A DNA stretch of 64,000 nucleotides from Bacilli bacterium (GTDB lineage: Bacteria; Bacillota_I; Bacilli_A; RF39; UBA660), in the NCBI GenBank assembly GCA_017460175.1, contig JAFUBO010000006.1, forward strand, positions 1-64,000, written 5' to 3'. Shown here piece after piece: positions 724 through 19,921 of the stretch. Every line of letters starts with the position of its first letter. Position 1 is the stretch's first letter. A model generated the notes under the pieces. That model was given only the letters and a program-made list of their open reading frames with translations. It did not search any database and had not been told where the DNA came from. A program made the translations under genes and the position numbers.

Positions 724-754
724 TATTTTCTTTATTATTTAATATATTTATCTA

Positions 755-991
755 TGTTTCACGTGAAACATTATATTTTTATTATCAAATTATTTCCCAT
801 GAAATATTTTCTACCTATGTTTCACGTGAAACATTATATTTTCTCACCAAATTATTTCCCAGGAAATATTTTCTACCTATGTTTCACGTGAAACATTATA
901 TTTTTTCACCAAATTATTTCCCAGGAAATATTTTCTACCTATGTTTCACGTGAAACATTATATTTTTTCACCAAATTATTTCCCAGGAAAT
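755..991. repeat. Four-unit ~62-bp tandem repeat of alternating parS and Noc-box palindromes
   Basis: Four exact copies of the parS palindrome TGTTTCACGTGAAACA lie at 755-770, 818-833, 880-895 and 942-957. Each is followed by a Noc-box-like palindrome: ATTTCCCATGAAAT at 792-805, then ATTTCCCAGGAAAT at 854-867, 916-929 and 978-991. The period is 62-63 bp. Centre-to-centre distances are about 35 bp from parS to Noc box and 27 bp from Noc box to the next parS. The parS sequence equals the Bacillus Spo0J consensus. The Noc consensus is ATTTCCCGGGAAAT, so the three AGG copies carry one central change and the first copy two. Spacer sequences are also repeated, so the array grew by duplication. It lies about 9 kb from oriC, and both cognate genes (noc, parB) are in this window. 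Confidence 0.93.
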
Positions 992-1007
992 ATTTTTATT
1001 ATATATA

Positions 1008-1298
1008 TTATTTTAAATTTTTATAAGTATTAATAATAATTTCACATAATTCTTCTGAATCATATATATTATCAAGTTTGTACATAGATTTAGCTCCACC
1101 ATATGGTATTTCTTCAGATAATTCATATTTCTTATTAGATTCTACCTTTTTTATTAATAATCTATCATCATATATACCACCAAATAATACGCCACGATAA
1201 TATAATAAATATTCACCTATCATAGGTTTATAAGAAATATTATCTAATGAACTTAGTTGTTTTAAAACATAATCTTTATATTCTTTAGTACTGGCCAT
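1008..1298 (-). CDS. TfoX N-terminal domain family protein
   Basis: This 96-aa protein resembles the N-terminal domain of TfoX/Sxy, seen in the stretch PMIGEYLLYYRGVLFGGIYD followed by a short basic strand and the segment YGGAKSMYKLD. In Gammaproteobacteria TfoX activates competence. The single-domain forms common in Firmicutes have no established role, so function is not assigned. Length fits the one-domain form. A ribosome site (GGAGATGAT) precedes the ATG. It sits between the fourth repeat of the parS/Noc-box array and a fifth pair, so it may have been inserted into, or surrounded by, the array. Confidence 0.75.
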   Translation of the reverse strand: MASTKEYKDYVLKQLSSLDNISYKPMIGEYLLYYRGVLFGGIYDDRLLIKKVESNKKYELSEEIPYGGAKSMYKLDNIYDSEELCEIIINTYKNLK

Positions 1299-1333
1299 AG
1301 TATCATCTCCTATAAAAATTATAATTTGAAATT

Positions 1334-1374
1334 ATTTCCCGGGAAATAATTTTACTTATGTTTCACGTGAAACA
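1334..1374. promoter_or_regulatory. Fifth Noc-box/parS pair (perfect palindromes)
   Basis: ATTTCCCGGGAAAT at 1334-1347 is a perfect match to the Noc binding site. TGTTTCACGTGAAACA at 1359-1374 is a perfect ParB parS site. Their centres are 26 bp apart, in the same order and almost the same spacing as the Noc-to-parS step in the upstream array, so this looks like a fifth unit separated from the array by the TfoX-N gene. Confidence 0.92.
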
Positions 1375-16774: not shown

Positions 16775-16851
16775 AGTTGAAAGAAAACTTCTTTTCGTGT
16801 ATAATGCTATTATAGGGTTACTAATAAGAAGAATAGGAAGAGGGGAATTTT

Positions 16852-18138
16852 ATGTATCCAGAAGAAAAAGACGAAGTCGTACAATTATATTTAGATGATA
16901 TTATTCCAAATAGATTTCAACCCCGTGAAGTATTTGATGAAAAAGCATTGAAAGAACTAGCGGTATCAATAAAAGAACACGGTGTCATACAACCAATTAT
17001 TGTTAGAAGTGTAAACGGAAAATATGAAATAATTGCCGGTGAGAGAAGATATAAAGCTAGTGCATTAGCTGGTCTTACTAAAATTCCTGCAATTATAAGA
17101 GATTTAGATGACAAAGAAAGTTCAAAAGTTGCATTACTAGAAAATCTACAAAGAAAAAACTTAAATCCAATAGAAGAAGCAAGAACATATCAAAAAATAT
17201 TAGAATTAGATGAAATGACACAAGAAGAACTTGCTAAAACAATGGGAAAAAGTCAATCAGCAGTAGCTAATAAAATAAGACTTTTATCACTAAGTGATGC
17301 TGTTCAAGAAGCCTTATTAAAAGAAGAAATATCAGAAAGACATGCAAGAACATTATTAAATATACCAGATGCTAAAAAACAAAAAGAAATGTTAAAAAAA
17401 GTAATAGATGAAAAAATGAACGTTAGAGTACTAGAAGAAGAAATTAAAAAAATGTATCCAAAAGAAGAAAAAGACGAAGTTGTAGAAACACCAAAAGAAG
17501 AAAAAGAAGTAATTGCTTCTTCTGAAGCTTTTGTAAACACTAATCCATTAACACCAACAGCAGATTTACCTGATGATGCATCAAATTATGGAAAAGTAAC
17601 AATTGCGCCTCCTGAAGGAGAAGATTTACCTGAAACTAATAAATATATAAATTATGGAGAAATAGGTAAAGAAACAGAAGAACAAGAAGAAATACCAAGG
17701 GAGACAACAACACTAGATGTAGATACAATAAAAGACAATGCTACAGATATTGCAATAAAAGAAGGAACAACTTCATTAGATAATTTATTAAATATTGGAG
17801 ATGCAACATCATCACAAAATAAGTCACAATTCATAACGCCTGCAGAAAAAATAGTAAAAACAGGTGTAGTAGATGATGATCAAGAAGAATCTTCAGATTA
17901 CTTCAGTATGCCTGAAGAATTTACACCATTAGAGATTAGTTCTACAGTAGGAAATCAACAAAACAATGATATTTTTGCAGCTAATTCATCAAATGAAAAA
18001 ATTACAATAGATGATGCAATTAATAGAATAAAAGATTTAATAGATGATCTAAAAGAAAAAGGAATAAATATGGAAATAAATGATATGAATTTTGAAAAAT
18101 CATATCAAATGATTATTAAAATAAATAAAGAAAATTAA
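16852..18138 (+). CDS. noc: Nucleoid occlusion protein Noc (ParB-family CTPase)
   Basis: The 428-aa ParB-fold protein lies between rsmG and parA, the Noc position in Bacillus. It has the CTP-binding GERRYKAS (63-70), ENLQRKNL (97-104) and an HTH with GKSQSAVANK (132-141). Gln135 and Lys141 match the residues reported to make Noc, as opposed to ParB, prefer its own box. Two oddities: the short N terminus (MYPEEKDEVVQLYLDD) lacks the basic amphipathic membrane helix of Bacillus Noc, and a long acidic linker (about 205-375) precedes a C-terminal dimerisation-like segment, making it about 145 aa longer than B. subtilis Noc. The start is supported by GAGGGG at good spacing. Confidence 0.88.
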   Translation: MYPEEKDEVVQLYLDDIIPNRFQPREVFDEKALKELAVSIKEHGVIQPIIVRSVNGKYEIIAGERRYKASALAGLTKIPAIIRDLDDKESSKVALLENLQRKNLNPIEEARTYQKILELDEMTQEELAKTMGKSQSAVANKIRLLSLSDAVQEALLKEEISERHARTLLNIPDAKKQKEMLKKVIDEKMNVRVLEEEIKKMYPKEEKDEVVETPKEEKEVIASSEAFVNTNPLTPTADLPDDASNYGKVTIAPPEGEDLPETNKYINYGEIGKETEEQEEIPRETTTLDVDTIKDNATDIAIKEGTTSLDNLLNIGDATSSQNKSQFITPAEKIVKTGVVDDDQEESSDYFSMPEEFTPLEISSTVGNQQNNDIFAANSSNEKITIDDAINRIKDLIDDLKEKGINMEINDMNFEKSYQMIIKINKEN

Positions 18139-18165: not shown

Positions 18166-18234
18166 ATCAAAAACATTTAAAAAAAAGCTAATATTTGATA
18201 CAATAAATAAGTAATATGAAAAATGGGTGATAAG

Positions 18235-19020
18235 ATGGGAAAGATTATTTCTTTAGTAAATCAAAAAGGTGGAGTAGGTAAGACTACCACTAGTATTAAT
18301 CTTTCTGCATCATTAGCAGTATTAGGAAAAAAAGTATTATTAATAGACTTAGATCCTCAAGGAAATACAACTACTGGTGTAGGAATAAATAAAGGAGAAA
18401 TCCAAAGTAGTATTTATGAAGTACTAATAGGTGAAAGAAAAATAACAGAAACTATGTTAAAAACAAAATATAAAGACTTTTACATAGTACCTTCATCAAT
18501 AAATATGGCTGGTTTAGGTAATGAATTAATTGAAAAAGCAAGAGCAGAAGTTGGATTTAAAGAAGGAGAACAATTAAAGAATTGTTTAGAAGACATAAAA
18601 GACAGTTTTGATTACATAATTATAGATTGTCCTCCATCATTAGATATTATTATCAAAAATGCTTTAGCAGCATCAAATTCAGTAATAATACCAGTGCAAT
18701 GTGAATTCTTTGCATTAGAAGGAATTACTCAATTATTAAGAACAATAATGTTAGCACAAAAAAGTTTAAATCCAACACTTGATATTGAAGGAGTACTTCT
18801 AACTATGTATGATGCGAGAACTAACTTAGGACTAGAAGTAGTAGAAGATATAAGAAAATTCTTTAAAGAAAAAGTTTATAATACAATAATTCCAAGATTA
18901 GTAAGATTAACAGAAGCTCCATCACATGGGGAGCCAATAATAGCATATGATCCAAAAAGTAGAGGATCTGAAGCATATATCAATCTAGCGAAGGAAGTGA
19001 TTGAAAGAAATGGAAAATAA
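18235..19020 (+). CDS. parA: Chromosome partitioning ATPase ParA (Soj)
   Basis: The 261-aa protein is a deviant Walker ATPase with KGGVGKTT at residues 11-18, DLDPQGN (switch I) and DCPPSLD (Walker B). It drives ParB-parS segregation and, in Bacillus, regulates DnaA. I choose the ATG at 18235 because GGGTGAT precedes it in the arrangement used repeatedly in this genome (GGTGAT, 3-4 bases, ATG); the in-frame ATG at 18223 would lie upstream of that site. It overlaps parB. Confidence 0.96.
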   Translation: MGKIISLVNQKGGVGKTTTSINLSASLAVLGKKVLLIDLDPQGNTTTGVGINKGEIQSSIYEVLIGERKITETMLKTKYKDFYIVPSSINMAGLGNELIEKARAEVGFKEGEQLKNCLEDIKDSFDYIIIDCPPSLDIIIKNALAASNSVIIPVQCEFFALEGITQLLRTIMLAQKSLNPTLDIEGVLLTMYDARTNLGLEVVEDIRKFFKEKVYNTIIPRLVRLTEAPSHGEPIIAYDPKSRGSEAYINLAKEVIERNGK

Positions 19021-19921
19021 TAATATTACAGAAACAGGAATACCAAGAAGAAGAGCATTAGGAAGAGGTTTAGAAGAATTATTTAATAATGAAGTACTAG
19101 ACTATAGTGCTGTAGAAAAGAAAATAGTTAATGAAACACCAAAAGAAGAAATAGTAATGTTAAATTTAGATGAATTAAGATCAAATCCATATCAACCACG
19201 TAAGGTTTTTGATCCTAAAGCACTACAAGAATTAGCAGATTCTATTAAAGAACATGGTGTATTCCAACCAATTATTGTCAAAAAATCAATTAAAGGTTAT
19301 GAAATAATTGCTGGTGAAAGACGTGTTAAAGCATCACAATTAGCCGGAAAAAAAGAAATACCTGCTATTATTAGAAATTTTAATGATGATGAAATGATGG
19401 AAATTGCCCTTCTTGAAAATTTACAAAGAGAAAACTTAAATGCAATAGAAGAAGCAACTGCGTATAAAAAATTACAAGAAACATTAGCTGTTACACAAGA
19501 AGAATTAGCTAAAAGATTAGGTAAAAGTAGAAGTCACATTACAAACATGATTGGTATACTTACGTTACCTAAAAATATTCAAGAAGAAATAAGTAAAAAC
19601 AATATAAGCATGGGTCATGCTAGAGTACTTAGTAAATTAGATTCAGAAGTACAACAACAAGAACTAGTGGATAGAATAATAAAAGAAGGTATTAGTGTTA
19701 GAGAATTAGAAGTATTAACACAAGAACCAAGAATTATTAAAAGTAATCCACAAAAACATAAAATAGAAAAAAATAATGAATATACATATCTACAAAATGA
19801 ATTAAGTGAAAAATTAGGTACTAAAGTAATAATAAAGAAAAATAAAATAGAAATAAGTTTTGTTAATAATAATGATTTAAACAGATTATTAGAATATATG
19901 AATATTGAGGTAGGAAAATAA
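19010..19921 (+). CDS. parB: Chromosome partitioning protein ParB (Spo0J)
   Basis: parS-binding CTP-dependent clamp. The 303-aa protein starts with the ParA-stimulating basic motif RRRALGRGLEELF (residues 13-25), then has the ParB core with GERRVKAS (102-109) and ENLQRENL (137-144), an HTH GKSRSHITNM (171-180) with the ParB-type Arg174, and a C-terminal dimerisation domain. Its likely targets are the exact parS copies at 755-957 and 1359-1374. The ATG at 19010 is chosen over a TTG at 19001. It overlaps parA by 11 bp. Confidence 0.96.
   Translation: MENNNITETGIPRRRALGRGLEELFNNEVLDYSAVEKKIVNETPKEEIVMLNLDELRSNPYQPRKVFDPKALQELADSIKEHGVFQPIIVKKSIKGYEIIAGERRVKASQLAGKKEIPAIIRNFNDDEMMEIALLENLQRENLNAIEEATAYKKLQETLAVTQEELAKRLGKSRSHITNMIGILTLPKNIQEEISKNNISMGHARVLSKLDSEVQQQELVDRIIKEGISVRELEVLTQEPRIIKSNPQKHKIEKNNEYTYLQNELSEKLGTKVIIKKNKIEISFVNNNDLNRLLEYMNIEVGK

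Follow-up and report, generated by a model that had tools for sequence, protein, structure and literature searches.

A Noc orthologue lacking the membrane helix, with origin-confined binding sites that alternate with parS

Noc of Bacillus subtilis has about 70 dispersed binding sites (NBS), and its classical mechanism requires both widely distributed NBS and a membrane helix (PMC4331003). An N-terminal amphipathic helix was predicted in all Noc homologues examined in that study (PMC4331003). In Staphylococcus aureus, Noc occupies 41 loci detected by ChIP over 1.4 Mb, has a nucleoid-occlusion role and also controls replication initiation (PMC5540599). Reading of NBS involves residues Q173 and R201, and a single Lys at position 179 or 184 suffices (PMC7383237). 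The distributions of parS and NBS have been termed drastically different (PMC7383237), and Spo0J and Noc of B. subtilis are reported to prevent early midcell Z rings jointly (PMC6852036). The accepted contrast places parS at the origin and NBS widely over the chromosome, with Noc bridging DNA and membrane. The lineage described here, a large group of uncultured bacteria of the gut, keeps Noc throughout and breaks both rules; no report of parS-interleaved NBS or of a helix-less Noc was found in the open-access literature, which was covered in part.

The window, the whole 64,000-nucleotide stretch of DNA that was analysed, contains a genuine Noc orthologue (Table 1), in agreement with an earlier note made from the sequence alone. 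The gene lies in the order mnmE-mnmG-rsmG-noc-parA-parB, which is the arrangement of B. subtilis. The product combines this rsmG-noc-parA-parB synteny with Noc-type DNA-reading residues and a Noc-type C-terminal domain. The Gln and Lys recognized earlier (Q173 and K179) are accompanied by R201, with Ser at position 184 (QKSR), so that the residues specifying NBS (Q173, K179 or K184, R201) are present; Q, K and R are retained at these positions in most Noc of the family. The neighboring ParB reads R-M-T-G and has both the ParA-binding LG[RK]GL motif and the parS code R173/G201, neither of which occurs in Noc. For Noc, only ParB_N and HTH_ParB exceeded the cut-off in the Pfam search. Its score against the NCBIfam model nucleoid_noc (TIGR04285) is 294 bits, under the curated cut-off of 315, and its best PDB matches are the Noc structures 7nfu, 7ng0 and 7ol9. 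The C-terminal domain matches Noc domains with an hhalign probability of 97.45%, vs. 0.45% for those of ParB. ParB proteins form their own clade in a core-domain tree (support 100/100), with Noc outside; the tree gives no resolution of the deep Noc root or lineage order, and hence of ancestral vs. derived state. The genome encodes only two ParB_N proteins, ParB and Noc. Conservation of the GERR and ENLQR motifs suggests that Noc forms a CTP-dependent clamp, and its residue code predicts binding to NBS.

The N-terminus of the translated ORF reads MYPEEKDEVVQLYLDDIIPNRFQPR. As had been noticed, it starts with acidic MYPEEKDEVV and enters the ParB fold almost directly, with about 7 residues (MYPEEKD) before the first core strand vs. 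about 25 in B. subtilis Noc; against solved Noc structures, the matched region starts at residue 4-8 here and at residues 23-26 in the chains of Geobacillus and B. subtilis. A missed upstream start with an amphipathic helix is ruled out by an in-frame TAG. This stop lies 15 bp 5′ of the ATG, the gap being filled by a strong ribosome-binding site (AGGAAGAGGGG), and the open frame of 433 codons offers just five additional codons upstream and no alternative start. The resemblance of MYPEEKDEVV to MYPKEEKDEVV early in the linker was also considered as a repeat; because the full repeat is not shared by the relatives read, it is treated as coincidence.

Helix absence and a long acidic linker are lineage traits and not peculiar to one protein. 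A Bacillus-type N-terminal helix is missing from every one of some 70 Noc proteins that represent the same genus plus over 30 further genera of the family, and all family Noc read have acidic linkers, of 90-465 residues. All Noc of family f1 that were examined share the architecture of the protein in the window. Elsewhere in the class, N-termini are of the MGLFDFLG type (family f6) or begin MFNIF or MNIF (f11, f8), and an obvious N-terminal helix is also missing in f9, f13 and f19. In family f17, the Noc of one genome (G098) is encoded in an open frame of 681 codons that starts MALFNRKDKEE (L107), and the five NBS of this genome all lie within about 40 kb of noc; this is possibly a parallel case of a long linker with origin-confined sites.

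The linker of the window protein spans 175-178 residues, close to the 170 or so first estimated, with a net charge of -28. It is probably disordered and is predicted, at low confidence, to be mostly coil; a single-sequence AlphaFold model is likewise of low confidence (mean pLDDT 52.8). Short motifs recur in the same order in linkers across the family: K[FY]IN[YF], D[IV][ND]x[IV]xxxAxDI, LD[SN]LLN, TPAEKI and DYFxMP. Looser forms of these occur, in that order, in 39, 38, 46, 30 and 13 of 65 proteins, whereas shuffled linkers would be expected to give 0.2, 0.3, 1.1, 0.1 and 0.05; as the patterns were written after the alignment had been viewed and the proteins are related, this test speaks for conservation and not for independent origin. 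The linker may therefore be regarded as a candidate effector arm. A scan for helices found no convincing membrane helix in it, with a weak detector by which relatives with likely N-terminal helices (MGLFDFLG in f6, MFNIF in f11) also scored poorly.

In this genome (992 kb, about 95% complete), a search with a 16-bp pattern allowing two mismatches, which sites with three or more escape, located five NBS, all within 560 bp (791-1348). At the same threshold six parS were found, five of them perfect, at 755-1374, and the sixth, with two mismatches, elsewhere. Within the window, 5 NBS-like and 6 parS-like sites were seen vs. 0.56 and 0.28 in shuffled sequence. The two kinds of site alternate: the first eight, from parS at 755 to NBS at 977, make up a 62-bp tandem repeat, and after a gap an NBS at 1333 is followed by a parS at 1359. 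The array is flanked by gyrA on one side and by the SRP RNA and tadA on the other; dnaA is about 8 kb away and noc about 16 kb. It is interrupted by a small gene with a TfoX_N domain (1008-1298, minus strand; Pfam 31.4 bits vs. a cut-off of 30.1), on the far side of which lies the NBS/parS pair at 1333-1374. The bacterial small SRP RNA (Rfam RF00169) occupies 609-694 on the minus strand, between tadA and the array.

Table 1. Coordinates in the window of the noc locus and of the parS/NBS array.
Feature	Position	Strand	Basis
Tandem array of 4.1 composite 62-bp units, each with a parS and an NBS	741..996		
parS, perfect	755..770		
NBS TATTTCCCATGAAATA, 2 mismatches	791..806		
parS, perfect	818..833		
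NBS TATTTCCCAGGAAATA	853..868		
parS, perfect	880..895		
NBS TATTTCCCAGGAAATA	915..930		
parS, perfect	942..957		
NBS TATTTCCCAGGAAATA	977..992		
NBS, perfect TATTTCCCGGGAAATA	1333..1348		
parS, perfect	1359..1374		
In-frame TAG (16834-16836) and 3′ part of ribosome-binding site AGGAAGAGGGG	16834..16851	+	Excludes upstream N-terminal extension
noc (helix-less, long-linker Noc orthologue, 428 aa, ATG start)	16852..18138	+	ORF, profile and structure matches
ParB_N/CTPase domain, aa 8-100, GERR and ENLQR motifs kept	16873..17151	+	Pfam PF02195
HTH_ParB DNA-binding domain, aa 102-201, with Q173, K179, S184, R201 equivalents	17155..17454	+	Pfam; residue roles PMC7383237
Acidic linker, about aa 203-378, net charge -28, mostly coil predicted (low confidence)	17458..17985	+	Composition, structure prediction
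Linker motif KYINY (family form K[FY][IF]N[YF])	17641..17655	+	
Linker motif DVDTIKDNATDI	17716..17751	+	
Linker motif LDNLLN	17776..17793	+	
Linker motif TPAEKI	17836..17853	+	
Linker motif DYFSMP	17896..17913	+	
Noc-type C-terminal dimerization domain, aa 382-428	17995..18135	+	hhalign
parA (Soj)	18223..19020	+	Pfam/ORF
parB (Spo0J), ParA-binding LGRGL, specificity residues R-M-T-G	19001..19921	+	Pfam, alignment

Relatives show the same confinement. Across 16 good genomes of 10 genera, the origin region contains every one of 51 NBS: 47 are no more than 30 kb from parS or noc, 31 of the 51 are within 100 bp of parS, and the remaining four, all in one genome (G042), are placed by their proximity to gyrA or tadA at contig ends with a variant parS nearby. 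Given their location at contig ends, the assembly was probably interrupted by the array. If NBS were placed uniformly, 47 of 51 would have P ~1e-48, a rough value since array copies are not independent. The genomes used are mostly draft or MAG assemblies, and among those of f1 39 of 43 have at least one NBS, the other four having none at one mismatch or fewer. In outer genera (e.g., G057, G067), NBS are found 2-16 kb from parS, without interleaving; in two families of the class in which Noc was not detected (f4, f15), NBS-like sites are almost absent. No genome with Bacillus-like NBS counts was present in the class and phylum samples, and the comparison with Bacillus uses published numbers. 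In three relatives an NBS lies 0.1-1.2 kb from noc (G067:C6:67731, G068:C23:43576, G041:C22:15942), which suggests possible noc autoregulation. The tadA-gyrA interval of G067 (L242) carries ten variant parS (TGTTTCACGTGGAACA) at 37-bp spacing, with interleaved NBS absent.

Composite arrays vary in length and sequence. The longest, beside gyrA in G059 (L239), has 13 NBS and 12 parS in units of about 80 bp, and another genome (G051) has eight composite units. When 85,000 species genomes were scanned, a parS followed by an NBS within 35 bp was found in at least 112 contig stretches; gyrA is present in 93 and tadA in 90 of those listed, and among the listed matches the titles shown are nearly all of uncultured Bacilli, Tenericutes or Erysipelotrichaceae. 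Within the 16 loci with at least three composite units (two of which, L126 and L245, are one and the same array), spacers are 81% alike within a locus and 40% between loci, vs. 39% when shuffled. Because spacers are unrelated between arrays, the parS and NBS pairing has been re-amplified many times. Array loci contain 390 sites of parS type on both halves and 261 of NBS type on both, with a handful of intermediates; the scan had selected one pair per locus, but neither NBS base 1 nor the remaining sites. These two discrete classes match the protein codes RMTG (ParB) and QKSR (Noc).

Both features on which nucleoid occlusion by Noc depends are thus absent: there is no N-terminal amphipathic helix, and NBS do not extend over the chromosome but occupy a single 560-bp stretch, in relatives likewise. 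The earlier note had reasoned that any membrane action must work another way. The missing helix, on which this reasoning stood, is confirmed and extends, on alignment with other Noc of the lineage, to the whole family; the confinement of sites to the origin and their interleaving with parS had not been foreseen. Since NBS are origin-confined and parS-interleaved, bridging of the whole nucleoid to the membrane is unlikely in any form. With the membrane anchor lost and sites only at the origin, alternating with parS, Noc is probably part of the centromere. We therefore favor, with reasonable confidence, a role for Noc as an origin-restricted centromere partner of ParB, a CTP-type clamp with the linker as effector arm in place of the membrane helix. 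With the ParB/Noc clamp core and NBS reading retained, Noc would load nowhere but at the NBS that alternate with parS between gyrA and tadA, some 16 kb from its own gene, so that ParB and Noc clamps would be deposited next to each other at the origin. Lacking the helix, Noc would not form the Bacillus-style bridge between nucleoid and membrane; instead each clamp would carry a long, acidic and disordered arm whose conserved motifs would serve for docking, and this arm may recruit or repel another factor at the segregating origin. The partner of this arm would most likely be a division protein or one that anchors or positions the origin.

Several other readings overlap with this one, which fixes the loading place of Noc and its missing parts, not its partner. 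Noc may exert a local nucleoid occlusion, inhibiting FtsZ around the origin only, through a direct contact of its acidic arm, in place of a membrane helix, with FtsZ or with a membrane protein, in an SlmA-like logic. FtsZ was found in this genome and in most relatives, and MinD was not detected in this genome or its family (58 genomes examined, one of which, outside the family, exceeded the cut-off), so some placement factor is to be expected. The conserved arm motifs and the joint effect of Spo0J and Noc on early Z rings (PMC6852036) point the same way. However, no FtsZ-binding motif was identified in Noc and the classical mechanism needs dispersed NBS and a membrane helix (PMC4331003), which leaves local occlusion rather unlikely. 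Control of replication initiation, with origin-bound Noc restraining DnaA, would have a precedent in S. aureus (PMC5540599) and accords with the roughly 8 kb between array and dnaA; it is improbable, as NBS follow parS and the gyrA-tadA interval and not the dnaA region.

The linker might also serve passively, as a spacer or bristle, while Noc would regulate ParB sliding along the array or act as a roadblock to it. Interleaving would hold ParB clamps between Noc clamps, and linker length is highly variable (90-465 residues), but ordered short motifs are conserved in the linker across many genera, and we consider such a passive role equally improbable. Least plausible by far is a vestigial Noc, with ParB reading the NBS-like palindromes as degenerate parS. 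NBS and parS differ at just two positions per half-site, yet the two changes go together, intermediates being almost absent; the genome has no ParB_N proteins besides these two, which carry the matching codes RMTG and QKSR; and noc is retained and conserved throughout the family.

The reading of Noc as a centromere partner may be extended, tentatively and at somewhat less than even odds, to a bipartite centromere across the family, in which the paralogous ParB and Noc clamps load at alternating sites within a single composite tandem array and Noc is a dedicated origin-bound adaptor acting through its disordered arm. An origin-only Noc may also reflect a state that preceded the spread of NBS across the Bacillus chromosome. 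The lineage separates the clamp function of Noc from nucleoid occlusion, provides a natural array in which the interplay of ParB and Noc clamps loaded side by side can be studied, and offers a way to work out whether the membrane anchor or the dispersal of sites came first in evolution.

Among described systems, Noc of B. subtilis and Geobacillus (7ol9, 7nfu, 7ng0, 6y93) is the closest, sharing the CTPase/ParB_N core, the HTH residues Q173-K179-R201, the Noc-type C-terminal domain and the rsmG-noc-parA-parB synteny. In contrast to the protein described here, it has an N-terminal membrane helix, its linker measures a few tens of residues rather than about 175, and the Bacillus protein has about 70 dispersed sites instead of 5 at a single origin locus. 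S. aureus Noc shares the NBS core, has sites in the origin-proximal half and is linked to the origin through replication control, but its 41 loci are spread out, whereas here there is a single parS-interleaved cluster. Chromosomal ParB (Spo0J) likewise forms a clamp at a multi-site origin-proximal cluster, and its parS sites share one array with NBS; it differs from Noc in its DNA code, its C-terminal domain and the LGRGL motif, which Noc lacks. SlmA of Escherichia coli, a DNA-bound division inhibitor that acts via protein contact from dispersed sites, is a possible analogue in function only, as its TetR fold is unrelated.
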